The translations under genes and the position numbers were made by a program. From positions 1-34,058 of the forward strand of contig CALMON010000071.1 in assembly GCA_937871785.1 (NCBI GenBank): a DNA stretch of 34,058 nt. Reading direction: 5' to 3'. Of this stretch, positions 3,601 through 32,163 are shown in pieces (positions within the stretch are counted from its first letter, which is position 1; every line of letters starts with the position of its first letter). The notes beneath the pieces are model-generated. The model did no database searches, was not told where the DNA came from, and worked only from the letters and a program-made list of their open reading frames with translations. The stretch is from an uncultured Granulicella sp. (GTDB taxonomy: Bacteria > Acidobacteriota > Terriglobia > Terriglobales > Acidobacteriaceae).

Positions 3601-5229
3601 TCACTTGCCGCAGGCGGCGAGATCGACCGTCCGGTCCAGCTTATGGGCGACCGCGGCCTGCGAGCACGGCAGGTAAATGTAGTGCGGCTGGTAGTCGATC
3701 AGGCCGGCGCTTTCGGCGGCGGGCACCATCAGCGGATAGCGGCTCAGGAAGTCGCTCGGCATCCAGACGCGGGGGATCGCGAGAAAAAAGCTCGCCGGGC
3801 GGTCGGTGACGACGGCGCTCAAGCGGCCGGAGTCGATCAGCTCGGCGTATTGCGCCAGCAGCGGCGCACCGTAGGTTTGGTTGTTGGCTTCGATCACCGC
3901 GCCGGTTGCGTCCATATCGGCGTAGCTGCTCTTGCCGGCCTGCACGGCAAGTTCCGGGAAGGCCGCGACCATCACGTCGCCGGGAATGGCGCGGAGCTGG
4001 TTTTCAAAAGCGTCGCGCTGCGCGACTTCCGCGGGCGCGGGGACAAATTTATCCGGTACATACACCCGCATCGCGAGTTGTATAAGTGCGGCGCTGTAGA
4101 GCAGCGCCAGGGCGGCCTGGCTATAGGAAGACCGATGTTGCAGCCTTGCGCCAAGCCGTGCCAACGACACTCCGAACAGCACGGCGATCCACAGGTAGGC
4201 CGGCAGCAGGGCGTTGGGGCCGGCGCCGCGATGACCTCGGATGTAGCCCGTAAACAGGATCATGCTGACGCAACCGAACGCATAAAACAGCGTTCGCGGG
4301 CTGCGCCAGCGCGGCGGCGCGAGCAGCGCCGCGGCCAGCGCCACCAGCAGCGCAACACCGTAGGCGCCCAGCACATCGGTAGGCAAAAAACGCAGGCCTT
4401 CGCGCACGTTGTAACCAAACCCCCCCGCCAGGCCGAATACGTAGACGCGATACCAGCCGTGGCTCGTGTGTTGCAGGTACGCAAACGACGCAGCCAGCCC
4501 GGCAAAAAACGCGACGAGCCCGGCGGCGATGCGGCGCGGCTGCCGGTAGTCGTACGCGAGCGCCAGCAACGCGATGGGAAGCACACCCTGCTTGGTCTGG
4601 AAGGCGCACACCCAGAGCAGGCCGGCGAACACCGCGGCGAGCGGGCCTCGCGCGCCGGGTCTCGACAGGCCGGGTCGCGAAACGTACATCGCCGCCATCA
4701 GGAAGAAGAGGTACAGCATGTCGACGCGGCCGACGTCGAACCACTCAAGCACCAGCGGGTAGCTCGAAGCAAAGCAGCCTACGGCGGCCAGCGCGGCGAC
4801 GGCGGCGGTCGGCTTTGCAGAGCCCTCAGCCGCTCCAGCCCGGCGGCTTTCGCGGTAGACCAGGGCGTACAGCAGCGCGAACACGCCGCAGGTCGAGGCG
4901 ATCGACACGAGCCGCAGCGTGACGAAGCTTGCCCCTGTGAAGCGCGCGGCGAACGCCGCCGCGTAGAAATAGATGGGGGTGTACAGAAATGGCGTGAAGT
5001 GGACGTCGGGGGCCGTGTACAGCGGCAACCCGGCGCGGATGTGGCGCACCGAGTCAAGCATCCCGTTTTCGTTGTACGAGTACGCGTAGTGCAGCCGCAG
5101 CTTCGCGGAAAGGAGAAACAACAGCACCATCAGCACGGAAAGCGCGATCACGCCCCAGCGCAGAAAAGCGACAGCGGCAGGCCGCGGCTGGGCTTGGGGG
5201 CCCTCGACAGGTGATTCAGCGGGGTGCAT
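3601..5229 (-). CDS. Multi-pass membrane protein, GT-C glycosyltransferase-like
   Basis: This is a 542-residue polytopic membrane protein. The first membrane helix is at about 24-44, followed by an extracytoplasmic loop with an acidic pair (YSYNENGMLDSVRHIRAG) and then LYTPIYFYAAA. Many hydrophobic helices follow, with a soluble tail of about 140 residues at the C-terminus. An acidic first loop with a Pro/Tyr-rich segment is typical of GT-C enzymes (PMT, ArnT, GT39/GT87 relatives), which move sugars from polyprenyl phosphate carriers onto envelope glycans or proteins. The exact family and acceptor cannot be told. The ATG at 5229 starts 15 bases after the stop of the dehydrogenase gene, and its GAGG site sits in that gap, so the two are very probably co-transcribed. 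It is convergent with the propeller gene, with only 50 bp between stops and no obvious terminator. Confidence 0.7.
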   Translation of the reverse strand: MHPAESPVEGPQAQPRPAAVAFLRWGVIALSVLMVLLFLLSAKLRLHYAYSYNENGMLDSVRHIRAGLPLYTAPDVHFTPFLYTPIYFYAAAFAARFTGASFVTLRLVSIASTCGVFALLYALVYRESRRAGAAEGSAKPTAAVAALAAVGCFASSYPLVLEWFDVGRVDMLYLFFLMAAMYVSRPGLSRPGARGPLAAVFAGLLWVCAFQTKQGVLPIALLALAYDYRQPRRIAAGLVAFFAGLAASFAYLQHTSHGWYRVYVFGLAGGFGYNVREGLRFLPTDVLGAYGVALLVALAAALLAPPRWRSPRTLFYAFGCVSMILFTGYIRGHRGAGPNALLPAYLWIAVLFGVSLARLGARLQHRSSYSQAALALLYSAALIQLAMRVYVPDKFVPAPAEVAQRDAFENQLRAIPGDVMVAAFPELAVQAGKSSYADMDATGAVIEANNQTYGAPLLAQYAELIDSGRLSAVVTDRPASFFLAIPRVWMPSDFLSRYPLMVPAAESAGLIDYQPHYIYLPCSQAAVAHKLDRTVDLAACGK

Positions 5230-5244
5230 CGAGGGCCTCGCTTC

Positions 5245-6090
5245 CTACAGCACGCTGCGGCCGCCATCGACGATCAGGTTCTGGCCGGTCATGTAGCTGC
5301 TCGCGTCCGAGCACAGGAACAACACCGCGCCCTGGTACTCGTCTTTGTGCGCCATGCGCGCCATCGGGATCAGTTGATGCAGCTTGGCGGTGAACTCGTC
5401 GGGCTGCCCGTTGAAGACGCCTCCGGGCGAAATCGCGTTGACGCGAATGCCCTGCGCCACCCAGTAGGTGGACAGGTAGCGCGTCAGGCCGAGCAGCGCG
5501 GTCTTGACCACCGAGTAGGTTACCGGCTTCACCGGCTGGTGCTCGTCGGGCAGGCCTTCCTGCCGGTACAGCCGCTGGTCGGGCGCGATCACCGCCAGGT
5601 CCGAGGCCACGTTGAGGATCACGCCTGCGCCACGCTTCACCATCTCCTGCCCGAAAATGCGCGAGCACAAAAAGGCTCCGGTAAGGCCCACGGCGATATC
5701 GTCGTTCCAGGTGCTGAGTGGGAAGTTTTCGAGCCGCGACCACGGCTGGCCGGGCTTCTGGTCTTCCACCTTGGGGTTGTTCGCTGCGTTGTTGATAAGG
5801 ATGTCGATACGGCCGAACTTCGCCATGATCGCATCGCGCGCCGCGGCAATGGAAGCCTCTGACGTGATGTCGACGGCAAGGCCAAGACACTCCGGGCCGT
5901 GGGCGAGCTGCAACTGCTCGGCGCGCATGGCGGGGTTGGCGACGGCAAGGTCGAGCACGACGATGCTCGCGCCCGCCGCGGCGAGAATCGCTCCATGATG
6001 GTAGCCGAGCAGACCCGCGCCGCCGGTGACGATGGCCACGCGGCCGGTAAGGTCGAAGAGCTCGGAAGGGCGAGTGTTGACGGTAGCCAT
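5245..6090 (-). CDS. Short-chain dehydrogenase/reductase, PtmA-like
   Basis: This 281-residue Rossmann-fold NAD(P)-dependent oxidoreductase is complete. Visible motifs are the nucleotide-binding TGGAGLLG (residues 22-29), NNAANNP, the catalytic-serine region NVASDLAV, the active-site YSVVK, and the C-terminal SYMTGQNLIVDGG. The APDQRLYRQEG insertion and the SRLENFPLSTWNDDIAVG stretch resemble PtmA-type dehydrogenases of surface-sugar pathways (family knowledge). The frame is open to an ATG at 6162. I chose 6090 because the family starts just before the Rossmann motif and because the longer form would overlap the RraB-like gene. The chosen start has only a weak ribosome binding site. The next gene downstream encodes a glycosyltransferase-like membrane protein, so a role in envelope glycan sugar modification is likely but inferred. 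Confidence 0.88.
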   Translation of the reverse strand: MATVNTRPSELFDLTGRVAIVTGGAGLLGYHHGAILAAAGASIVVLDLAVANPAMRAEQLQLAHGPECLGLAVDITSEASIAAARDAIMAKFGRIDILINNAANNPKVEDQKPGQPWSRLENFPLSTWNDDIAVGLTGAFLCSRIFGQEMVKRGAGVILNVASDLAVIAPDQRLYRQEGLPDEHQPVKPVTYSVVKTALLGLTRYLSTYWVAQGIRVNAISPGGVFNGQPDEFTAKLHQLIPMARMAHKDEYQGAVLFLCSDASSYMTGQNLIVDGGRSVL

Positions 6091-6127
6091 GGTCGTTTCA
6101 GTATCGCAGAGACCGGTGCAAGCTGGA

Positions 6128-6475
6128 CTACGTACTTTGAAGGACGCAACCCCAACCGTCATACTCGACCTGGAACAAGCGGCTGACGCAAAGCATAAAT
6201 CCTGACACGCAGCACAGGACGCTCTGATTCGTCGGCATGTGAATGACTGCTACGACCCAAATTTGTTCATCGCCTTGTTTCTGTCGCACAGAAGCTTCGC
6301 CGAAGTTCTTGCCATTGAGGAACTCCGCCAGATCGTTCGCCTTCTGCCGGTCGTCAGTCTTGAACGCAAAATCGACCTTGCGAGGCGTGTCGAAGGTGTC
6401 TCCCCGACCGTTATTCTTTTGCAGAAGATCGTTATCCTGAACAGCATTTTCATGAAGCAGGTCGAAGATCGTCAT
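6128..6475 (-). CDS. Small RraB-like protein (ribonuclease E inhibitor RraB fold)
   Basis: This 115-residue soluble protein has an ATG at 6475 with a strong GGGAGG site 8 bases upstream. The C-terminal two thirds read like the RraB domain. A beta strand KVDFAFKTDDRQKANDLAEF opens the domain, a strand IWVVAVIHMP is in the middle, and the tail FQVEYDGWG matches the 'VEYDGWG' ending of Escherichia coli RraB. RraB binds RNase E and changes its activity. Whether this protein acts on an RNase E/G homologue is unknown. The N-terminal 30 residues (MTIFDLLHENAVQDND) are unlike E. coli RraB and may carry another function. It lies 37 bases upstream of the dehydrogenase start and is probably in the same transcript. 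Cysteines near residues 88-97 (SVLCCVSGFMLCVS) are unusual for the family. Confidence 0.65.
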   Translation of the reverse strand: MTIFDLLHENAVQDNDLLQKNNGRGDTFDTPRKVDFAFKTDDRQKANDLAEFLNGKNFGEASVRQKQGDEQIWVVAVIHMPTNQSVLCCVSGFMLCVSRLFQVEYDGWGCVLQST

Positions 6476-6540
6476 GTCTCAAGCCTCCCACCCGATGATG
6501 TTACATCGAGCCGCAGCACCCTTCCTTAGGTTTCGTTGCA

Positions 6541-6558
6541 GCGTATGGCCGCATACGC
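6541..6558. promoter_or_regulatory. Perfect 7-bp-arm inverted repeat upstream of the RraB-like gene
   Basis: GCGTATG-GCCG-CATACGC is a perfect inverted repeat 66 bp upstream of the RraB-like start and 57 bp past the end of the TetR gene. Its size and symmetry suit a TetR-family operator; it lacks the T-run of an intrinsic terminator. Binding by the neighbouring TetR protein is inference. Confidence 0.4.
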
Positions 6559-6614
6559 GCCACCCCTGAAGGGCAGCGGTACGGAACGACCGTAGAGTCA
6601 CCACTGTACCTTCT

Positions 6615-7253
6615 TCAGCGACCCTGCGCGGTACACGCATCCAGATACGCGTGGGCGAAAAACAACAACTCCTCGCGAAAGGGTTCGAGCTGCCGCTCCG
6701 GGTGCGGCAACTCCAGCAGGCGGCGGCTCACCCCCGTCATCGCCGCCAGCAGCATCGACGCCACGATCTGTGGCGACTTCGTCAGGGCGGTCGACGACGT
6801 CGCAAGCAACGCGATCACCGCCTTGTGCAGGCGCGCCGAAACGCTCTGCGCAATTTTCGCTCCGTCCACGTCCGAGCTCACCGCATACAGCGCGACACTG
6901 ATGCCGGAGTCGGCCATCTTCGCGTCGAGATAGGCGTTGATCAGCGCCGTTGCCATCCCTTGCACCGGCCGGCCTTTCTGCTCGTGGCACACGCCGATCA
7001 TGGAAGCGGAAATCGCTTCCATATGGCACCGCAGCGCGGCCTGCAGCAGCGAGCTCTTGTTCGGGAAATACTGGTACAGTGTGCCGACCGACACACCGGC
7101 GCGTGCGGCGACGCGCGTGGTCGTCAGGCGCTCTTTGCCGATGTCGCGCAAAACCTGAGTGGTGGCCTGCAAAATGGCTTCGACGCTGGCCGCCGAACGC
7201 GCCTGAACCGGCGATTTTCGCGGCTGAAACGGGGCTGGGGCGGCTTGTGGCAA
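6615..7253 (-). CDS. TetR/AcrR family transcriptional regulator
   Basis: This 212-residue regulator has an N-terminal TetR helix-turn-helix at about 20-66. The key segments are RSAASVEAILQATTQVL, TTTRVAARAGVSVGTLYQYF and PNKSSLLQAAL, the last two forming the recognition-helix signature. An all-helical ligand-binding and dimerisation domain follows; its ligand is unknown. The first possible start in frame is TTG at 7253, with CGGAG about 8 bases upstream. An ATG at 7284 reads into a different frame, so the TTG seems right unless there is a frameshift. The gene is divergent from the aldo/keto reductase with 82 bp between starts, so that gene is the natural target. The gene order also allows control of the RraB-like/dehydrogenase transcript. 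Confidence 0.9.
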   Translation of the reverse strand: MPQAAPAPFQPRKSPVQARSAASVEAILQATTQVLRDIGKERLTTTRVAARAGVSVGTLYQYFPNKSSLLQAALRCHMEAISASMIGVCHEQKGRPVQGMATALINAYLDAKMADSGISVALYAVSSDVDGAKIAQSVSARLHKAVIALLATSSTALTKSPQIVASMLLAAMTGVSRRLLELPHPERQLEPFREELLFFAHAYLDACTAQGR

Positions 7254-7335
7254 ATGCGAACTCCGAACCTGAGGCTTTCTTCATCTAACCACAGGTAGGC
7301 ACAAGCTGGCTGCGAAGCGGCCAAGGGAGAACAGC
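7254..7335. promoter_or_regulatory. Divergent tetR / aldo-keto reductase promoter region
   Basis: These 82 bp hold the promoters of both divergent genes. An imperfect dyad CTAACC-ACA-GGTAG at 7285-7298 is a possible operator. It is not the same sequence as the repeat at 6541-6558, so at most one is likely to be the specific TetR site. AAGGGAGA at about 7323-7330 is the ribosome binding site of the reductase. Confidence 0.35.
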
Positions 7336-8211
7336 ATGGTAACGACAAATACACTGGGCGGCACCTTTACATTTCCGGACACGGACCTCACCGTGAAGCG
7401 CATGGGCTATGGCGCGATGCAACTGGCAGGACCGCACGTGACCGGGCCGCCCAAGGATAAGGACGCGGCGATCTCGGTGTTGCGCACGGCTCTCGAAAGG
7501 GGTGTGGACCACATCGACACGAGCGACTTTTACGGGCCGCACGTGACCAACCAGATCATCAAGGACGCGCTACACCCGTATGCCGACGACCTGACCATCG
7601 TCACCAAGCTGGGCGCGCGGCGGGAAGATAGTAAGTGGCTTGTGGCGCTGTCGCGGCAGGAGTTGATCGATGGCCTGCATGACAACCTGCGCAACCTCGG
7701 GCTCGAACGCATGAACGTGGTGAACCTGCGCGTGGGGCCGCCGCTTTCGCCGGCGGACGCCTCCATCGAAGAGCCGATGACGGTGCTTGCGGAACTGCAG
7801 CAGCAGGGCTTGATCGAGCACATCGGCCTGAGCACGGTGACGGCCAGGCAGATTGAAGAAGGGCAGAAGATCGCGCCGGTGGTTTGTGTGCAGAACGAGT
7901 ACAACATCGCCAAGCGCGCCGACGATGCCCTGATCGCGAGCCTCGCCAAACAGGGCATTGCGTATGTGCCCTACTTCCCGCTGGGCGGGTTTACGCCGCT
8001 GCAGGCTTCGGCTCTCGACGAGGTGGCCAAGGAGCTCGGCAGCACGCCGATGATCGTGGCGCTGGCCTGGCTGCTGGGGCATTCGCCGAACCTCCTGCTG
8101 ATTCCGGGGACGTCGTCGGTCAAGCATCTGGAGGAGAATCTGTCGGCGGCGGAGCTGGTGTTGCCGAAGGAGATGGTGGAGAAGCTCGATGCGATCGGCG
8201 CGGCGGCATAA
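7336..8211 (+). CDS. pdxI: Aldo/keto reductase, PdxI/YdbC-like (pyridoxal reductase type)
   Basis: This 291-residue NADPH-dependent (beta/alpha)8 barrel is very close in sequence to E. coli YdbC/PdxI. Shared segments include MGYGAMQLAGP, HIDTSDFYGPHVTNQII, DDLTIVTK, VQNEYNIAKRADDA and YVPYFPLGGFTPLQ. PdxI reduces pyridoxal to pyridoxine in B6 salvage. Catalytic residues visible are Asp61, Tyr66 and Lys91. The usual fourth member, histidine, is replaced by Asn130 (VVNLRVG), as in E. coli YdbC from memory. The ATG at 7336 has an AAGGGAGA site 6 bases upstream. The gene stands alone between a divergent TetR regulator and a strong hairpin terminator. The symbol rests on overall similarity; substrate specificity in this organism is unproven. 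Confidence 0.88.
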   Translation: MVTTNTLGGTFTFPDTDLTVKRMGYGAMQLAGPHVTGPPKDKDAAISVLRTALERGVDHIDTSDFYGPHVTNQIIKDALHPYADDLTIVTKLGARREDSKWLVALSRQELIDGLHDNLRNLGLERMNVVNLRVGPPLSPADASIEEPMTVLAELQQQGLIEHIGLSTVTARQIEEGQKIAPVVCVQNEYNIAKRADDALIASLAKQGIAYVPYFPLGGFTPLQASALDEVAKELGSTPMIVALAWLLGHSPNLLLIPGTSSVKHLEENLSAAELVLPKEMVEKLDAIGAAA

Positions 8212-8235
8212 TTCTGTTCACCCTTGTCGTCTCAA

Positions 8236-8289
8236 CGAAGTGGAGGAGTCTGCTTTCTTGAACGAACGCAGACTCCTCCCTTTACTTCG
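8236..8289. terminator. Bidirectional hairpin between convergent genes
   Basis: A perfect 12-bp stem (GGAGGAGTCTGC, 8242-8253, with GCAGACTCCTCC, 8268-8279) has a 14-base loop. An outer 6-bp stem (CGAAGT 8236-8241 with ACTTCG 8284-8289) extends it across a small bulge. It lies between the stops of the aldo/keto reductase and the glutaminase-like gene. Only a short pyrimidine tract follows on either side. Confidence 0.75.
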
Positions 8290-8334
8290 GAAGGACGAGT
8301 CCACAAGGAAGACAGGCAGACCCTCTGAAGGCAT

Positions 8335-10419
8335 CTATTCCGTCCGCCCCTGCCACTTCTTCGCGAGCGCCGGGTCGCTCAGCGCCTTGATGTACACGCC
8401 GCCCACCACCGAGCGCGCCTGAAATTGCTCCTGCCTGCCGGTCACGGTGTCGTACCAGTCGTTGAGCGGCACGCGCGAGGGTGCGGCGTCGAGCCACTTG
8501 CCAATCAACGCGGCAAAGTTTGTAAACTCTTCCCGCGAGTCCGATAGCGTAAACGTCCAGAACTCCCAATCGAGCTTGGTGTACATTTTGCGGCTGTCGA
8601 GCGGCAGACCGTATGGCTGCAGTTTGGTTTCGTAAAAGCGCAGTTCGCTTTCGCGCACGCTCGCGGGGAACAGGTTGTAGCCGAGCAGCTTGTCCCACAC
8701 CAGGTTGTACTTCTGGCTCCAGCTATCGGCGTCCTCGTAGCCGAGCTTGTAGTGGTCGCCTTCGCGGGCCATCGTTTGCCACTGCCCGGCGTACCCTTTG
8801 GCAAGCGCGGCATACTTCGCCGACTCGGCGGTATGGCCCAGCCCGCGCGCCATTTCGGCGTACGCGGCTATCGCGACGATCGCCTTCAGCGACAGGTTCG
8901 CGTTGTGTGCGACGTGCCCGGCGAAGTCGTCGGTGGTGAGCTGCTTTTCGGGGTCCAGGCCGTGCATCCGCAGGAAGTCGACCCACTTGGTCAGCAGCGG
9001 CCAGTAGTGCTCGGCAAAGTGGAGGTTGCCCTGCGCCCGACCCATGGCCGCGATCATCACCAGCATGTTGCCGCTTTCTTCCACCGGCATCTGGTCGTCT
9101 TCAGTCTTTTCGCCGCCGCCGTACACCTGCCCGTCGGCCAGCGGATACTGGCCCAGGTCGTGCGGCGCAAACGGAAATTTCCAGCGGCCGGTGGCGGCGT
9201 ATTCCATGACCGGCTTCAACTGCGCTTCAAGCAGCGCGGGGCTGAAGAACACGAAGAAGGGCGACGACGGGTAGAGCACGTCGACGGTCGAAATGCAGCC
9301 GTTCGAGAAGTTTTCCTTGGGAAACTGCAGCGGGCTGCCGTCAAGGTCCGTCGCCAGACCGTTGGCCGCCAGCGTTTGCCGGTAGGCCAGCGTGGCGACG
9401 CGTGCGTAGTCCGGCCCGCCCACGCGTTCGAGGTCGGCATGGAGGTCGGCGTCGAACTTCGTCGATCGCATTTCGATGGTCGCAAACTGCGCTTCGGCGG
9501 CGGCCAGCATCCCGCCTTCGGTCGTGCCGCCTTTGGTCCAGTAGGCCTTCAGCTTGCGGTCAAGGTACGCGATCACATAGGTCTGGGTGAAGCTGACGAG
9601 GACGTGGCGGTCGGCCGTTCCGTTTGCGTCGACGGACAGCGGAAAGTCGACCGCCAGAAACGGCGCGCCCCTGTTGGGTGCCTGCGGCATGGCTGTGTCG
9701 TCTTCGGCGGGAAGCGTGCCGCTGGCGGCAAAGGCGTCGGGCGCGCGGCGCGAAAACGACGTGCTCGCTTCCTCGCCTGACGGCACGGCCAAGTGGAAAT
9801 AGCCCCAATCCGCGCGCAAATTGTCGCCACTGCGGTTGAGCACGCGCTGGTCCTGCGAGCCGACGTTGAGCACCGCAAGCGGCCCGGCAGCCGAGCGCCC
9901 CCAGGTCACGGGCTGGTCGGGTGTGTTGACGGCAAGGCGCGGGTCGACCGCGAAGTACACCTGCACGTCGTGGTGCGCGCCGTCGGTAGCCGCGATGTGC
10001 CAGCTCAGGTAGGTTACCGGCCGCGCGAGCACGGTGAGGTCGTTCGGCAGGAGCGGCGAAAGAAAGCTCAGCGTGCAGCGAACGCCCGCGCCTTCAAACG
10101 TGTAGCGTGTGTGCGTGGCCGTAATCTCAAGCCCCGTTTGCGGCAGGGCGGGCATGTCGCGGTCGCGGTCGCCCATCAGGCGGAACGGCTTGCCGTCGAT
10201 GCGCAGCAGGCTGTCCATGGGCTGTTCGGTGCCGGTCCAGTGGCGGGTGGGGCTCGCGGTCAGCGTGTCGGTAAGGGACCATACGCTGAAGTACGGGTCG
10301 TGCGTGATGAGCGGCACGGCGGGCGCGCGGTCCTGCCGCGGCTGCTGGGCGCAAGTCGCCACTGCCAACGCCGCAAGCGCGGCGGCAGCGATCAGTTTCC
10401 GGGCGAGATGCGGACGCAT
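8335..10419 (-). CDS. Exported glutaminase A-like protein (DUF4964/DUF5127/DUF4965/DUF1793)
   Basis: This 694-residue protein starts with a Sec signal peptide (KLIAAAALAALAVATCAQ). The mature part follows the order of fungal glutaminase A (GtaA): an N-terminal DUF4964-like segment (PLITHDPYFSVWSLTD, TGTEQPMDSLLRIDG), a DUF5127 beta-sandwich to about residue 330, a DUF4965 region (VATLAYRQTLAANG, FPKENFSNGCISTVD) and a helical DUF1793 barrel (EESGNMLVMIAAMG, KLDWEFWTFTLS, PLNDWYDT). Fungal members release glutamate from glutamine; bacterial members are common in Bacteroidota and Acidobacteriota, and their substrates are largely unproven. The frame is open further upstream, but the ATG at 10419 has GGAGAAG 5 bases before it and begins the signal peptide. 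It lies 64 bp downstream of a dehydrogenase gene and may share its transcript. Confidence 0.85.
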   Translation of the reverse strand: MRPHLARKLIAAAALAALAVATCAQQPRQDRAPAVPLITHDPYFSVWSLTDTLTASPTRHWTGTEQPMDSLLRIDGKPFRLMGDRDRDMPALPQTGLEITATHTRYTFEGAGVRCTLSFLSPLLPNDLTVLARPVTYLSWHIAATDGAHHDVQVYFAVDPRLAVNTPDQPVTWGRSAAGPLAVLNVGSQDQRVLNRSGDNLRADWGYFHLAVPSGEEASTSFSRRAPDAFAASGTLPAEDDTAMPQAPNRGAPFLAVDFPLSVDANGTADRHVLVSFTQTYVIAYLDRKLKAYWTKGGTTEGGMLAAAEAQFATIEMRSTKFDADLHADLERVGGPDYARVATLAYRQTLAANGLATDLDGSPLQFPKENFSNGCISTVDVLYPSSPFFVFFSPALLEAQLKPVMEYAATGRWKFPFAPHDLGQYPLADGQVYGGGEKTEDDQMPVEESGNMLVMIAAMGRAQGNLHFAEHYWPLLTKWVDFLRMHGLDPEKQLTTDDFAGHVAHNANLSLKAIVAIAAYAEMARGLGHTAESAKYAALAKGYAGQWQTMAREGDHYKLGYEDADSWSQKYNLVWDKLLGYNLFPASVRESELRFYETKLQPYGLPLDSRKMYTKLDWEFWTFTLSDSREEFTNFAALIGKWLDAAPSRVPLNDWYDTVTGRQEQFQARSVVGGVYIKALSDPALAKKWQGRTE

Positions 10420-10483
10420 GTTGCTTCTCCGGTAACACGGCGCGGCCAAGGCTGCCTCGCCGGTGAGCCAGTGTACATCGCGG

Positions 10484-11281
10484 CTACAGGCTGCGGGTCT
10501 GGCCGCCGTCCATGACGAAACAGCCGCCCGTGGCAAAGCCCGCCTGCGGACTGCACAGGTAGGCGGCAAACGAGGCGATCTCGTCCGGCGTGCCGAAGCG
10601 TCGCTGCGGAACCTCGGCCTTGAGCATGGCCTGGACGCCATCCGGGCTGCTTTCAACGCGGCGCTCCCAGGTGCCGCCGGGGAAAAGAATATTGCCGGGA
10701 GCGACGGTGTTGACGCGGATGCGTTCGGGGCCAAGCTGGCGGGCGAGGTTCTTGGAGTAGTTCACAAGAGCGGCCTTGGCGGCGGAATACGGCAGCGGCG
10801 CAGGCGTTGCTTCAACGGCGACGATCGAGGAAATATACAGGATGCTGCCGCGGCTCTGCGCTTCCGTGTCGGAAGCGTTTTTGAGCAGATGCGGAAGCAC
10901 CGCCTGCGTCAGGCGCGTGGAGGCAAAAAAATTCAGCTCAAAGAGGCGCTGCCACTCCGCGTCGGGCTGGTCCCAGCCGGGCTTGCCGGCGCCGGTGCCG
11001 AGGTTCGCGATGAGGTGGTCGATTTGGCCGAAGTGCTCGACCGTGCGCGTGAAGGCGGCAGCGATGGTGGCGGCATCGCCAAAGTCGCCAGCGATGGGCA
11101 GAATGCGCCGGGAAGTGTCGGCGGTGGCGAGTTCGCGCGTGGTGCGCTCAAGCGAGGCTTCGTCGCGGCCGGTGAGCACAATGCGTGCGCCTTCGGCAAG
11201 CAGCGTGGCAGCGATGGCGCGACCGATGCCGCGGGACGAACCCGCAATAAAGCAGACCTGGTCGGTAAGGTGGAGGTTCAT
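10484..11281 (-). CDS. Short-chain dehydrogenase/reductase (classical SDR)
   Basis: This 265-residue NAD(P)-dependent oxidoreductase has the cofactor motif GSSRGIG (residues 14-20), ANLGTG in place of the usual NNAG, the catalytic region ILYISSIVAVE with PYSAAKAAL, and the C-terminal TGGCFVMDGG. It resembles 3-oxoacyl-ACP-reductase-like SDRs, but the substrate cannot be told. The ATG at 11281 has AGGA about 6 bases upstream. It is separated from the upstream dehydrogenase by a 137-bp repeat-containing gap, and is 64 bp upstream of the glutaminase-like gene. The neighbours suggest a role in sugar or polyol oxidation (inference). Confidence 0.88.
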   Translation of the reverse strand: MNLHLTDQVCFIAGSSRGIGRAIAATLLAEGARIVLTGRDEASLERTTRELATADTSRRILPIAGDFGDAATIAAAFTRTVEHFGQIDHLIANLGTGAGKPGWDQPDAEWQRLFELNFFASTRLTQAVLPHLLKNASDTEAQSRGSILYISSIVAVEATPAPLPYSAAKAALVNYSKNLARQLGPERIRVNTVAPGNILFPGGTWERRVESSPDGVQAMLKAEVPQRRFGTPDEIASFAAYLCSPQAGFATGGCFVMDGGQTRSL

Positions 11282-25413: not shown

Positions 25414-25448
25414 CACTTACCACTTACCACTTACCACTTACCACTTAC
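25414..25448. repeat. Perfect heptanucleotide tandem repeat, 5 x CACTTAC
   Basis: Five identical copies of CACTTAC stand head to tail with no mismatch, 112 bp upstream of the alpha/beta hydrolase start and about 100 bp past the nucleoside hydrolase stop. Perfect short arrays of this kind change copy number by slippage, so the number may vary between strains and could affect promoter spacing. Confidence 0.95.
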
Positions 25449-25546: not shown

Positions 25547-26746
25547 TCAGGGTCTCATCGGCGCCGTCATCAGCTTCAAAAAGAGCGCCGTAAAGCGAAC
25601 CGTATCGAAGTCCCAGGGAACGTTCGCCACCTTGGCGTCGGGCGGCGGCACAGGCTTTTGCCGCTTGGGTTGCGGAGCGTCGGGCCAGGGCACGCCAGCG
25701 TAGCCGAGCGGCGTTTCATCCCAATACCATGAAGCGCCATAGCTCATGCCCTGCATGGTATCGACGTCCACATAGTACCGCCGCGTTGCGGTGATGATGG
25801 TGGGATCGATCAGGTAGGCCGCCATGACTTCATCGGGCATGCGAAACCACTGTACAGGCTTGTGCTCGCGGTACGGCCTCATCACCAGCTCCTCATACAG
25901 GTGCGCTTCGGCGTCGTTCTGCCCGTGCGCAATGGCGTCAGCCATCTCAGGCGTTTTGTGCAGCTTCTCCGCCAGGTCCACGGTGATCAGGGTCAGCTTC
26001 GGCCACGGCGCGTGCAATACGATTTGCGCCGCCTCGGGGTCGTACACCACGTTCACCGTCTTCGGTTGGATCATGGGGCTCGTGCCCATAAATACGATCT
26101 CCTGGGTCAAAGCGATTATGCCGGAATCCAGCCGAATGGCTAGCGCTATGTTGGTAAGCGCGCCTCCACAATAAAGCGTCACCTGGTGTGGATACTTGCG
26201 AATTTGCTGCACGATGAAGGCGGCCGCGGAGCCTTCGACAGGCTTTACCTTCGCGAAGCCTCCGGGAGGTGGTTCGACGACCTCGGGGCCGGGGCTGTAC
26301 TCGGCATACGCTCCAAGAAACGGGTCCGTCCGCGTGCCTCCATAGAGTCGGGTCAGGCGCAGCGGCGTTTCGCGCGATTGCACCAGCGGAAACTCGGCCC
26401 CCATGTACACCGGCACGGCAGGCCGATGGATATCCTCAAGAAGCTTGAGAACGTCGGCGGTCTCCTGCTTGAGCCAGCCGTTGCCTGTCACGACGGTGAC
26501 GCCGAGCACGTCGATGTTCGGGGACTGCAGCAGCATCACCAGCGGGTCTTCGTTATCGCCGATGATGCCGTCGGTGTCCTGATCAAAGATCACCTAGCGC
26601 GGCTGAGGCGACTCCTGGGCAAAGACCGCGGCGCTCAGGAAACAGCAAAGAAGCAGCAAAAGGCCAGAGCTTTCCAGCGCACGCGAACGGACAAGGCGAG
26701 CGCATCGTCCCTTCTCTCGAGTTGTCCTGAAAGGATTCAGGAACAT
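25547..26746 (-). pseudogene. Exported nucleoside hydrolase gene interrupted by an in-frame amber codon
   Basis: Read from the ATG at 26746, the gene encodes a clear Sec signal peptide (GLLLLLCCFLSAAVFAQE) with GGGAGG just upstream. After 50 codons comes TAG (26596-26594), and the same frame continues without another break to the normal stop. The downstream 348 codons encode a nucleoside-hydrolase-family domain, which cuts N-ribosidic bonds. The N-terminal Asp cluster is DQDTDGIIGDNEDP; other family-type segments are VLGVTVVTGNG, VTLYCGGALTNIALAI and KTVNVVYDPEAAQIVL. Related genes usually read a basic residue before VIFD, so one base change of a Lys or Gln codon would give this TAG. A GTG directly follows the TAG (26593-26591) and could restart translation, giving a leaderless cytoplasmic protein. 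It lies 17 bp after the amidohydrolase stop. A sequencing error is possible. Confidence 0.8.
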
Positions 26747-26763
26747 CAAAGCCTCCCTCTCGA

Positions 26764-28266
26764 TCAGCCACCACTGGTAAGCAGAATCGCCTTCTCGTAG
26801 CGGGCGATCATACCCGGATAGCGTGCCATCACATCGGCTCTCATCTTTTCGGTGTCGACGGTCAAAAACTCCCGGTCCTTCATAACAACCTTACCGTCGA
26901 CAATCGTGGTGCGCACATTGAGGCCAACCACGTTCTGTGCCAGGGTCAAGGTGGGATCGGTGCTGGTGAACTGATCGTAGTCGTCGTGACCGACGAGCAC
27001 GATATCCGCCAGCTTTCCGACTTCGAGGCTCCCTGTTTGGTCGCCAAGCGCCGCCGCCGCCGCACCGCCGCGGCACGCCTGGCGCAGCATGTCGGTGTAC
27101 GTGATCTGCGCCGGTGCGTGAAACGGCGTGGCGTAGCCAAGCGTCTGACCCAGCACCGCGTAGTGCGACACCTGGAAAAGATCAAGCGTGCCACGCGAGT
27201 TCGGCCCGTCGGTACCCAGCCCCACGCGAATGTTTGCGCGGATCATATCGAGCATGCGATGCGGCCCGCCGCCGTAGTTGCCGAACGCGCAGTGTGCCAC
27301 CGAGGCATCGTGCTTCGCGTAGCAGTCGACGTCCGTGGGCGTAAGAAAGATGGAGTGCGCACAGTGCATGCGCTTGTTGAAGATGCCGAGGCTTTCAAAA
27401 TACTCGGGTGGCCGCAGGTTCCAGTTTTCTACGGTGTAGTCCACCTCGTAGGTGCCTTCGGAAAGATGCGTGTGAATGTTTGTGTCCAGCTCGTCCGCAA
27501 GCTTCGACATGCTCACGCGCAGCTCTTCCGTGTTGACCAGGATCTGCCGCAGCGACAGCCACGCCTTGACTCTGGGATTGCTCTGCCAGCGCTTCACCAG
27601 AGCTTCATTTTCCTTGAGCGCCTGGCTGGTGGTCATGATGTGACTTTTCGGTAGCGGCCCGCCATCACCATCCATGTCGCAGGTGTTCAGGGAGATGCGG
27701 CCGCGAATGCCGACCTGGTCGGCGGCTCGCCCCATCTCGTCCGGGTGCGGTCCGCCGGCTTCCAGAAAGCACGTCGTGCCGGCGCTGATCATCGACGTAT
27801 AGCCGACCATGCCGCTGTTGTACACGTCGTGGGGGTCCAGTCCGCTTTCAAACGGAATCAGGGTTTTCTTCCAGCTTGGGCCCTTGCGATGGGTAACGCG
27901 ATGCACGCCGCGAAGGAACTGCTGCGCCGTGTGGTAATGCGTGTCCGTCATGCCTGGCATGGCGATCAAGCCGGAAGCCATGACGGTTTCTTTCGCGGTG
28001 AACATGCCGGAGGCATCCGCTGCTTTACCTATCCAGGCGATGGCATTGCCTCGGACCGCGATAGCGCCATCTGTCACCACGGTGTTCTTCCCGTCGAAGG
28101 TCACCACGTCGCAGCCTGTAATCAGCAGATCGACATGGCTGGGAGCGGCCAGTGGCGCAAACACCTCTGCCCTGGCCAGCCTCGAAACTGCTAAGGCACT
28201 CGCTACAGCCCCGGCGGCAAGAAACTCGCGGCGTGTGATCCCCTGGCTGACTTCTTCCTTTTCCAT
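26764..28266 (-). CDS. Tat-exported amidohydrolase (ATZ/TRZ, cytosine-deaminase-like)
   Basis: This 500-residue protein begins with a twin-arginine signal (ITRREFLAAGAVASALAVSR) and continues as a metal-dependent amidohydrolase. Metal and catalytic residues are visible in TDTHYHTAQQFLRG (HxH), THLSEGTYEVD (His and Glu), HCAHSIFLT (His) and GLGTDGPNS (Asp). A small beta-sandwich is formed by the ends (VDLLITGCDVVTFDG and VRTTIVDGKVVMKD). The family includes guanine, 8-oxoguanine, adenosine and S-adenosylhomocysteine deaminases and triazine hydrolases; the substrate here is unknown. I chose ATG 28266 because AGAGG lies 6 bases after the spacing expected, while the ATG at 28284 has no site. It is the first gene of a two-gene transcript with the nucleoside hydrolase. 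Confidence 0.9.
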   Translation of the reverse strand: MEKEEVSQGITRREFLAAGAVASALAVSRLARAEVFAPLAAPSHVDLLITGCDVVTFDGKNTVVTDGAIAVRGNAIAWIGKAADASGMFTAKETVMASGLIAMPGMTDTHYHTAQQFLRGVHRVTHRKGPSWKKTLIPFESGLDPHDVYNSGMVGYTSMISAGTTCFLEAGGPHPDEMGRAADQVGIRGRISLNTCDMDGDGGPLPKSHIMTTSQALKENEALVKRWQSNPRVKAWLSLRQILVNTEELRVSMSKLADELDTNIHTHLSEGTYEVDYTVENWNLRPPEYFESLGIFNKRMHCAHSIFLTPTDVDCYAKHDASVAHCAFGNYGGGPHRMLDMIRANIRVGLGTDGPNSRGTLDLFQVSHYAVLGQTLGYATPFHAPAQITYTDMLRQACRGGAAAAALGDQTGSLEVGKLADIVLVGHDDYDQFTSTDPTLTLAQNVVGLNVRTTIVDGKVVMKDREFLTVDTEKMRADVMARYPGMIARYEKAILLTSGG

Positions 28267-28893
28267 GAGCTTCCTCTCGCACATCGATTTATTGTTTCGG
28301 TGGGTGGATGAATAGATGGATGGCTGCTGACGTGCGCTGTGCAGGGCTATGCCGAGAGGTCAGCCCCGTTTCGCGAACCGAGGAAAGGTGCGCGTAAGGG
28401 GGAGAACCGAACCCCTTTCCGCGAATCGGAGTGTATTCCGGTAAGAGCTTGTATTTGTTCTGCGGTGCAAATAGGTGATTTGGAAACTGATTGAATCACA
28501 CTTTTGAAACAACGCCAAATGCGAGAGCCGTCACCGGCTTTGCCGCCTGCGGCGACCCGATACGGCGCGTGCCGTTTCTCCGTTAGAAAAATACTGGACG
28601 AATATCTCTAGACATGTTTAGATAGGTGAAATTACCAAGTCACTGATTTGTTGTGTAGGTCAACGCGAGAGCAACCGTGTTCGCACACTATCTTTTCCGT
28701 TTCAACAAACGAGAAGTCGCAGTAGCTTTCAGCTTTCCAGGTTCAATCGGCTGCATTGTCCCGCTGAAACTTTGCAAGACGTATCATCCCTATCTTTGAA
28801 GCAACATTTCGTCCGAAGGCGAGACTCGAGATACCCATCTTGCCGCGCAGTCGCATTCGTGTCTTCAGGAACTCATCTCGAAAGGTTGTGAGT
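28267..28893. promoter_or_regulatory. Long divergent control region between amidohydrolase and TonB receptor
   Basis: This 627-bp stretch has no convincing gene. It becomes A+T-rich from about 28430 to 28830 in contrast to its neighbours. Visible elements are the perfect palindrome TTCGCGAA (28370-28377) with a related copy TTTCCGCGAATCGG (28416-28429), and a hairpin AAGGGG/CCCCTT (28396-28401 and 28412-28417). There is also a 16-bp dyad TCTAGACATGTTTAGA with one mismatch pair (28607-28622). These could be operators for the two divergent transcripts. A TTG at 28840 opens the receptor frame early but has no ribosome binding site. Confidence 0.5.
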
Positions 28894-31800
28894 ATGCCAG
28901 GATTGACCACTTCTTGCCTGTCTGTCGTTCGGCGTTTGTTGCAAGGCACCGCACTTGTCGGCTTCGTCCTCCTTGCGTGCACGCACCTTGCTCAAGGGCA
29001 ATCGCTTGCGGGTCTGGGTGCTCTCAGCGGCACCGTACATGATCCCTCCGGTGCCCTTGTTCCGCACGCCGACGTGCAAGTGGTCAATCCCAGCCTCGGC
29101 ATAGACCGTAGGCTGAAGACCGATGGCTCCGGTCTCTTCTCGGCACCCTCTTTGTCGCCTGCGTCCGGATACAGCGTCATTGTCACGGTCCCGGGGTTCA
29201 GTGTTTCCAAGGTAGATAACATCATTATCCATGTGGGCGATCTCATTACTATTCCGGTTACGCTCTCTGTTTCCGGCTCAGAAACAGTCTCGGTTTCCGA
29301 AAGCGACCAGCCGGTCATCGACCTGAACAAAACTGAAGTGTCTTCGATCGTCAACCAGGAGCAGATTTTGAATCTGCCGATCAATGGCCGTCGCGCTGAC
29401 CAGTTCGCGCTGCTGTCGCCAGGTGTCGTCCCTGACGGTACGACGGGTGAAATCTCCTTCCATGGTGTTCCTTCCGGCAATCTTTTCCTGCTCGACGGCG
29501 TCGATATTACGCAGCAATGGTTCGTTCAGAATGCGGGCGGCAGCGCCCTGCTCTCAAATGTATCCATGGAGGCCGTGCAGGAGTTTCGCACTGAAGTGCT
29601 GGGCTATTCCGCGGAGTTCGGCCGCAGCGCCGGTGGCGTCGTCAACCTGGTCACCAAAAGCGGCACCAACAATTTCCACGGCACGGCTTTCTGGTTCTTT
29701 CGCAATCGCACGTTGAATGCTATCGATCTATTTTCTAAGCTGAACGGCGTGGCCTATAACCCGCCTGAGTTCCGGCATCAGTTCGGCGGAACCGCCGGCG
29801 GTCCCGTCATTAAAAACAAGTTATTCTTTTATTCCAGCTACGAAGGCACCATCCGCAACTTCCCACTCGTCAGCAGCCTTTTCAGCGATGCGACATACGT
29901 CAATCCAACGACCGGTCAGTTCTTGGCTGGCATCTGTAATGCCTCCACAGTCCAGTGTGCGGCCGCGCAGTCTTATATCAACCGGCTGTCTATTCCCAGT
30001 ACGGTCCCGCGACGTCTGCAGCAAAACGCGGGCTATGTAAAATTCGATTATCGTCCCAGCGATAAAAGCACGTATAGCGCCAATTTTAATCTTGTCAATT
30101 ATTCCGCAACACACGATGCCGTTACCGCCGCGGCGGTAACCGATGGCACGGGCGCCGCAGGAACGAATTACAACATCAGCACGCATGTCCGTAACGCGCA
30201 TTTGTTCAATTCCTACGTCTTTAATAACTCGATGGTGAATGAAGTACGCTTCGGCTTTAATGCCGACCGCCGCTTCCAGGGTTTGCCGACCGATCTGGCT
30301 CCACCGAATGGCGTCCACTCCGCGGTCACCGTGGCGGGTATAGGAAGCCTGGGTGTTTCGCAGAATCAATTGCCCAATATTCAACCTACCGAGAAGCGCT
30401 TTGACCTGAGCGACAATTTTTCCCAGCTCAAGGGCAAAAATCAATTGAAATACGGTCTGGATCTCGCCTATCTCCGCAGCGTAGAAAATGCGGTCTTCAG
30501 CGGCCCCGGCGCGTTCACCTATACGAACTTTACCAATTTCGCCTACGATCTTGCACCGTCTCCTACTGACCCGGTTGTTCCGGTGACTTCCACCACGGCG
30601 GGTCAGGCGATTAGCAAGCACTATTCGACCTTCGCGCAAGCTGTCGGTCATCCGCAGACCCGCACTACGATCCGCGACTATGACTTCTTTGCACAGGATA
30701 ACTGGCAAGTAGCACCTCATCTATCGCTCAACCTTGGCGTGCGCTATGAGTACGCCACGTTCACCCAGCCACCACCGCCAACCTACCAGGCCACCAATCC
30801 TACCGTCGGCAAGATCAATCAGCCCAAGAACGATTTCGCGCCCCGTGTTGGTTTTTCGTATGCAGCCAATGAGAACAAGACAGTCGTGCATGGCAGCTAT
30901 GGCATCTTTTACGCTCGACTTCCCGGCGCGACCATCACCCGTCTCCAGCAGCTAGGAGGTACGGTGCGCAAGTCGTTTACTCTCAGCAACACGAACGCCA
31001 CGCAATTCGCGGCTGCCCCAACGTTTCCGAATACCTTCACAAGCCTCGCGCAAATCAATTCGATTCTTAGCCCGAGCTCAATCAACACCGGCTTTGCCAT
31101 TCCGAACCTGGCGACGCCTTACGTGCAGGAGTTCACTCTCGGTGTTCAGCAGGACCTCGGCAAAAAGATGAGCCTCGACATTGCGTATATCGGATCTCGC
31201 GGGCTCAAATTTCTGCAGCGCTCGGACCTCAACGCGGGTCCTCCCACCGGGGTTGACACGTTCAACGTTGTCAACACCGCCGGTGTAACCACGGGTACCT
31301 ACAGCACGCCCGTGTACTATAGCGCCGCTTACGGCAACACCACGTATAACCCCAACTACAATAAAATTCTCCAAATCGATAATGCCGGACGAATTTGGTA
31401 CGACGGTCTCATCATGGAATTTCATCAGCGTGGAGGCAGGTTCTTCCAGAGTAATGTTGCTTACACGTGGTCGCACTCCGAAGACCTCGGTCAGGGTACG
31501 TTTACCAGTAACTATTACTTCACCGATCAAGGCGACACGTACTTCAACGGCTCTTCGAGCATTAATGGAAAGAGTGGTTACGCTTTTGAGAAAGGCCGCT
31601 CGCTTGAAGATCAACGGCACCGCGTTGTGCTCTCGGCGGTGATGGGCGTACCCCATGTCGGTTATTCTTCGAAGCTCGTCAGCGAAACCCTCAACGGCTG
31701 GCTTCTGACTCCGATCTTCACCTATGCCACGCCGCAATATGTCGACTCCACGCTGACGGTGAGCTCAGCCGATCCTCGCCTGTATGTGTCTACCCCCACC

Positions 31801-32163
31801 CTGAGCGGAATCGGGGCGGAAGCGCCGGGTGGCACCCGTGTTCCCTTCCTTCCTACCGCTAACCTTGCGCTCGGTACAACAGCTCAACTGGACGGCAGGT
31901 TGACGAAAAGCTTCAATCTCCCGAAGGATGGTCAATCGATTCAACTCGCCTTTGAAGCTATCAACGCACTCAATCACATCCGGTACACCAGCGTCGTTCA
32001 GTTGGCCTATAAGTCGACCTGGAATACCGCAACGCAAACGGGCACGCTCACGCAGCAGCCTGTAGGTGGCGCAACGGGGTTGGGTGCGGGGAGCGCTTCA
32101 GCGGGCTTCCCCGACGGAACAAACGCACGGCGTGCGCAAGCCTCGTTCCGCTACACCTTCTAG
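28894..32163 (+). CDS. TonB-dependent receptor, Oar-like, complete
   Basis: This 1089-residue outer-membrane receptor has a signal peptide (GTALVGFVLLACTHLAQG) and a carboxypeptidase-regulatory-like domain (LSGTVHDPSGALVPHADV, about residues 45-125). The plug domain shows QILNLPINGRRADQFALL, LFLLDGVDITQQWF and AEFGRSAGGVVNLVTKSGTN. A long beta-barrel ends in the aromatic outer-membrane signature QASFRYTF. The barrel strands FRHQFGGTAGGPVIKNKLFF and FAPRVGFSYAANENKTVVHG are typical of the acidobacterial family. It would import a bulky substrate with TonB; the neighbouring exported nucleoside hydrolase and amidohydrolase suggest nucleosides or related compounds (inference). Start 28894 was preferred to TTG 28840 because AAAGG lies upstream and the signal peptide follows. 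Its base composition is visibly less GC-rich than the flanking genes. Confidence 0.92.
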   Translation: MPGLTTSCLSVVRRLLQGTALVGFVLLACTHLAQGQSLAGLGALSGTVHDPSGALVPHADVQVVNPSLGIDRRLKTDGSGLFSAPSLSPASGYSVIVTVPGFSVSKVDNIIIHVGDLITIPVTLSVSGSETVSVSESDQPVIDLNKTEVSSIVNQEQILNLPINGRRADQFALLSPGVVPDGTTGEISFHGVPSGNLFLLDGVDITQQWFVQNAGGSALLSNVSMEAVQEFRTEVLGYSAEFGRSAGGVVNLVTKSGTNNFHGTAFWFFRNRTLNAIDLFSKLNGVAYNPPEFRHQFGGTAGGPVIKNKLFFYSSYEGTIRNFPLVSSLFSDATYVNPTTGQFLAGICNASTVQCAAAQSYINRLSIPSTVPRRLQQNAGYVKFDYRPSDKSTYSANFNLVNYSATHDAVTAAAVTDGTGAAGTNYNISTHVRNAHLFNSYVFNNSMVNEVRFGFNADRRFQGLPTDLAPPNGVHSAVTVAGIGSLGVSQNQLPNIQPTEKRFDLSDNFSQLKGKNQLKYGLDLAYLRSVENAVFSGPGAFTYTNFTNFAYDLAPSPTDPVVPVTSTTAGQAISKHYSTFAQAVGHPQTRTTIRDYDFFAQDNWQVAPHLSLNLGVRYEYATFTQPPPPTYQATNPTVGKINQPKNDFAPRVGFSYAANENKTVVHGSYGIFYARLPGATITRLQQLGGTVRKSFTLSNTNATQFAAAPTFPNTFTSLAQINSILSPSSINTGFAIPNLATPYVQEFTLGVQQDLGKKMSLDIAYIGSRGLKFLQRSDLNAGPPTGVDTFNVVNTAGVTTGTYSTPVYYSAAYGNTTYNPNYNKILQIDNAGRIWYDGLIMEFHQRGGRFFQSNVAYTWSHSEDLGQGTFTSNYYFTDQGDTYFNGSSSINGKSGYAFEKGRSLEDQRHRVVLSAVMGVPHVGYSSKLVSETLNGWLLTPIFTYATPQYVDSTLTVSSADPRLYVSTPTLSGIGAEAPGGTRVPFLPTANLALGTTAQLDGRLTKSFNLPKDGQSIQLAFEAINALNHIRYTSVVQLAYKSTWNTATQTGTLTQQPVGGATGLGAGSASAGFPDGTNARRAQASFRYTF

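Follow-up and report, generated by a model that had tools for sequence, protein, structure and literature searches.

An in-frame TAG between signal peptide and enzyme in a Granulicella nucleoside hydrolase gene, probably a fresh nonsense allele or a draft base error

Layout of the interrupted gene and identity of its enzyme part

The window, which is the whole stretch of 34,058 nucleotides analysed here, is part of contig C71 (37,002 bases) in a draft genome of the genus Granulicella. The draft comprises 3.95 Mb in 269 contigs and is estimated by tool to be 82.9% complete and 3.3% contaminated. On the minus strand of the window, an ATG opens a frame of 50 codons that ends at a TAG, and the TAG is followed directly by a GTG and 348 open codons closed by a TGA (Table 1). 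The frame is the same on both sides of the TAG. Re-reading of the sequence reproduced exactly the coordinates, frame, TAG, GTG and both open parts given in an earlier note on this DNA. The strong ribosome binding site named in the same note is the motif AGGGAGG in front of the ATG, whose best duplexes reach -10.3 to -10.7 kcal/mol when computed against a consensus 16S tail. No Rfam family matched the window at its gathering score, so no RNA element was seen.

Table 1. Features of the interrupted gene and its neighbours in the window
Feature	Positions	Strand	Basis
AGGGAGG, ribosome binding site in front of the ATG	26752..26758	-	Sequence and duplex energy
First 50 codons: ATG, signal peptide and a short linker	26597..26746	-	Sequence; signal peptide by eye
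In-frame TAG; lysine codon in five of five orthologues	26594..26596	-	Sequence; orthologue comparison
GTG, inherited valine codon, possible restart codon	26591..26593	-	Valine in five of five orthologues, GTG in three
Catalytic domain of the nucleoside hydrolase (348 codons, then TGA)	25547..26593	-	PF01156, E 2.1e-48; fold match
Upstream amidohydrolase gene, ending 17 bases before the interrupted gene; N-terminus twin-arginine-like	26764..28284	-	PF01979; N-terminus by eye
TonB-type outer-membrane receptor gene of the cluster, divergently oriented	28840..32163	+	PF25183, E 6.3e-99

The 348-codon part matches the PF01156 profile with 165.9 bits, against a curated cut-off of 34.2. A PDB search with its predicted model (pLDDT 78, pTM 0.82) gave 108 matches at E up to 0.001, and the 50 listed are nucleoside hydrolases throughout. 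By profile and predicted fold, the enzyme part is thus a putative nucleoside hydrolase of family PF01156. A literature search for nucleoside hydrolase together with Granulicella returned nothing relevant.

The classical aspartate motif of the nucleoside hydrolase metal site is DxDxxxDD. The first DxD is invariant in 14 sequences compared here, and the acidic pair after it looks altered in them by eye. At 26540-26593, the subfamily motif DQDTDGIIGDNED likewise differs by eye from DxDxxxDD, as do its counterparts in the orthologues and cluster paralogues. Between the nucleoside hydrolase gene and the next gene, five perfect head-to-tail copies of CACTTAC occupy 25414-25448, the only site in the examined assembly sequence with at least three exact tandem copies.

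Orthologues, selection and the gene cluster

Five of the 27 same-genus genomes (54-100% complete) compared besides the window's own contain a close orthologue, with 73-83% identity in the enzyme part. Each of these orthologues is a single open frame from signal peptide through enzyme and none is leaderless; signal peptides were judged by eye in the window gene and the orthologues alike. The earlier note had proposed an alignment with orthologues at the TAG position, and this alignment gives a lysine codon, one substitution from TAG, in all five and a stop in none. The codon after the junction encodes valine in all five and is spelled GTG in three. In the predicted structure, the residue encoded by the GTG stands directly before the first core strand, which comprises residues 2-5 counted from the GTG, and in the orthologues a signal peptide and short linker precede this point; the claim that the break falls at a domain border is therefore upheld. 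Because the orthologues have valine at this place, the GTG is an inherited residue, and the idea that it evolved as a start codon was rejected. Its position next to the TAG is accounted for by the conserved valine that opens the first core strand in the orthologues.

A wider survey covered 40 nucleoside hydrolase junctions at 29 loci, none of which has a stop at the junction codon. The next codon encodes valine in 34 and isoleucine in 6, a count that is partly built in, since the junction frames were picked by a motif filter that required valine, isoleucine or leucine there and dropped misfits; all that the survey shows independently of the filter is that stops are absent and that the codon is GTG in 15 of 40. 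In profile surveys of PF01156 the window gene counts as free of stops, since the matched region starts downstream of the TAG.

The enzyme part is under normal purifying selection, with no sign of long decay. Values of dN/dS between the window copy and the five orthologues are 0.067-0.132, against 0.030-0.199 among the intact copies, although dS exceeds 1 in 14 of the 15 comparisons, so that these values are unable to date a recent event. The residues unique to the window copy number 18 and are mostly conservative; the other copy without a close sister (L007) has 29, and the four copies with a sister have 0 to 9. With one stop only and such dN/dS values, an old decaying pseudogene was rejected. 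The argument of the earlier note that a dead gene would show more breaks holds to this extent, but it does not bear against anything more recent.

In all five relatives, the orthologue directly follows a tandem paralogue about 40% alike and has a relative of the TonB-type receptor no more than about 6 kb away. Three of the relatives also have an amidohydrolase gene in front; in the other two, none was detected within the 20 kb covered. The window gene belongs to a recurrent Granulicella cluster of a TonB-type receptor, often an amidohydrolase, and nucleoside hydrolases. The window cluster is without the tandem paralogue: the stop of the amidohydrolase gene is separated from the start of the interrupted gene by 17 bases (26747-26763). 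Only two PF01156 genes were found in this genome, the one in the window and one on contig C122. The latter is an unbroken gene with a signal peptide by eye and lies beside a receptor and an amidohydrolase frame of its own (about 4109-10815 of the fetched C122 locus). The window cluster would then be reduced and possibly redundant, and because its paralogue is missing and a second, unbroken nucleoside hydrolase gene is present on C122, loss of the window enzyme could be tolerated.

Broken genes are also seen elsewhere in this draft. In the receptor family PF25183 (OMP_b-brl_4), the genes on contigs C12, C64 and C233 each run over two frames, and one on C54 is interrupted several times, with a TAG among the breaks. 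Family surveys, which register only stops within the matched domain, found such a stop in one of 63 PF25183 stretches (that on C54), in none of 11 PF01979 stretches and in one of 36 PF07690 stretches (C158), the last being a match below the cut-off that runs past the natural end of the open frame. Whether the breaks in the PF25183 genes are real or result from misassembly, one broken gene is unexceptional in this draft. According to the available text of one study, many pseudogenes called from internal stops in public assemblies are artefactual; low coverage is a main cause, and high coverage removes spurious ones (PMC11017572).

Possible readings of the TAG

The results are best explained by an exported nucleoside hydrolase gene with a single fresh nonsense codon, which is very probably either a true mutation of recent origin or, in the consensus of the draft, a wrong base or a minority allele. 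This reading is favoured because the orthologues are unbroken, their lysine codon is one substitution away from TAG, the adjoining valine is inherited, selection on the enzyme part is normal, and TAG is used as an ordinary stop in this genome. Between a true mutation and a base error the chances are roughly even, which is a guess. We infer a recent origin of the TAG and a loss of function. If the TAG is real, ribosomes would start at the strong site, make a signal peptide fragment of 50 residues and stop, and little or no exported enzyme would result. Against a base error may be set the statement in the same source that Illumina assemblies generally have the fewest internal stops (PMC11017572). 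Two further observations count against the fresh mutation or error: the undecayed enzyme part also fits continued use, and the break coincides exactly with the border of the signal peptide, beside a start codon.

How neat this placement is can be expressed by counting. The five orthologues together have 482 codons that are one substitution from a stop (93-105 each). Directly after 45 of them (9.3%) stands an ATG, GTG or TTG, and only three of the 482 also lie within 3 codons of the border, one each in three orthologues and none in the other two. A random nonsense substitution would look so neat in roughly one of 100 to one of 200 cases. These odds are modest, as the pattern was picked after the fact in 34 kb scanned for striking patterns.

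Of the three explanations offered in the earlier note, a very recent nonsense change, or a base error, which the note names in its refuting condition, fits all the results; stop and restart at the GTG is possible, and the evidence speaks against amber readthrough. Readthrough, in which translation would continue through the TAG by insertion of an amino acid and yield the complete exported enzyme, would suit the frame that is open on both sides of the TAG and the normal selection on the enzyme part, but it is highly improbable. Release factor 1 is present and unbroken in this genome, and the 41 tRNA genes found (Rfam model, anticodons by ARAGORN; genome 83% complete) have ordinary anticodons, none of which reads TAG. 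TAG serves as a normal stop codon here: of 319 long open frames, 113 end in TAG, 118 in TGA and 88 in TAA; these frames of at least 350 codons, from 60 stretches (834 kb) that include the window, are the longest open frames without large overlap rather than verified genes, and some are possibly wrong frames in G+C-rich DNA. Neither the five orthologues nor the 40 junctions have a stop at the junction codon. A codon-usage scan of the 834 kb for genes broken in frame gave 38 candidate pairs (15 TAG, 15 TGA and 8 TAA). There is no clear excess of TAG among them; many of these pairs will simply be adjacent genes, and the window gene itself escaped the scan. Genome-wide recoding of TAG was rejected on the evidence of release factor 1, the tRNAs and stop use. 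Since some 17% of the genome may be absent from the draft, a rare suppressor tRNA is strictly conceivable, though there is no sign of one.

A further reading is a crossover between the tandem paralogues, in which the first copy's leader would have been fused to the second copy's enzyme part and the TAG would have arisen at the seam. The first paralogue, present just upstream in all five relatives, is the one missing in the window; its junction codon encodes tyrosine in all five and is also one substitution from TAG, and arginine precedes this codon in all five, as in the window. The linker tells otherwise: QESPQPR in the window is close in length to the linker of the second paralogue, and the first has only QRY. 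At the DNA level, moreover, the window leader resembles neither paralogue's leader over more than a few bases. On linker length, the crossover was judged unlikely, and we give it very little credence.

Restart remains to be weighed. Here ribosomes would end at the TAG and begin again at the adjacent GTG, giving a cytoplasmic enzyme of 348 residues without signal peptide. Such a product would retain the first strand of the predicted model (residues 2-5), a solved relative (8db6_B) aligns its residue 6 to residue 6 of the product, and the GTG is the only ATG, GTG or TTG codon between the TAG and the DQD motif. The distance from stop to start is 0 bases, within the range of -8 to +6 bases to which termination-reinitiation is linked in the available text of PMC10666635; with the start at +2 bases, the loss of native coupling in three E. 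coli pairs was only 5, 20 and 70% (PMC10666635), but such values are relative to native coupled pairs, and the window junction is not such a pair. Some restart at the GTG is possible, being favoured in principle by the adjacency of the two codons. Against it stand the origin of the GTG as an inherited valine codon and the single frames with signal peptides in all five orthologues. The GTG also has no ribosome binding site with normal spacing: the best duplexes are -5.9 kcal/mol at 13 bases and -6.9 kcal/mol at 15-17 bases, all weaker than that of the real start. As an account of the locus, restart is thus improbable, if less so than readthrough or crossover. Still less probable than restart itself is the fuller proposal that the TAG-GTG pair made the exported enzyme cytoplasmic through termination-reinitiation, as a relocation by one substitution maintained in a lineage whose cluster has also lost its tandem paralogue. 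If restart were true, the locus would be a compact example of a single change moving an exported enzyme into the cytoplasm.

The fresh nonsense codon or base error is therefore preferred: the TAG looks like an ordinary mutation or an error of the draft, and not like a new way of reading the gene. It also gives a caution, in that a stop at a neat domain border beside a start codon can arise by one substitution in a conserved motif.

Comparison with known systems

The enzyme part resembles the solved inosine-uridine preferring nucleoside hydrolases of PF01156, such as ZmNRh2b (6zk1) and E. coli YeiK (3b9x), in profile score and fold and in the DxD motif at the first strand. Its predicted model aligns with ZmNRh2b at a TM score of 0.69 by query length. 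Unlike those solved enzymes, it would be exported, as suggested by the signal peptide seen by eye, and the metal-site loop after its first DxD is longer and altered (DQDTDGIIGDNED), which by eye is also so in the Granulicella orthologues.

The hallmarks of a recoded TAG or a suppressor system were not found, in that a TAG-reading tRNA was not detected in the 83% complete genome, release factor 1 is present, and the TAG is conserved in none of the five orthologues and none of the 40 junctions. With the termination-reinitiation of adjacent genes, as described in the available text of PMC10666635, the window shares the adjacency of stop and start seen in coupled pairs. It differs from such pairs in having one ancestral gene instead of two and no known product, and the TAG-GTG arrangement is absent from all five orthologues, each of which is one unbroken frame. 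Also similar are the single-nonsense or spurious internal-stop pseudogenes of draft genomes (available text of PMC11017572), with which the window gene has in common one stop, an otherwise intact sequence, unbroken relatives and a fragmented draft. From these pseudogenes it differs in the place of its stop, at the signal peptide border with a GTG adjoining.
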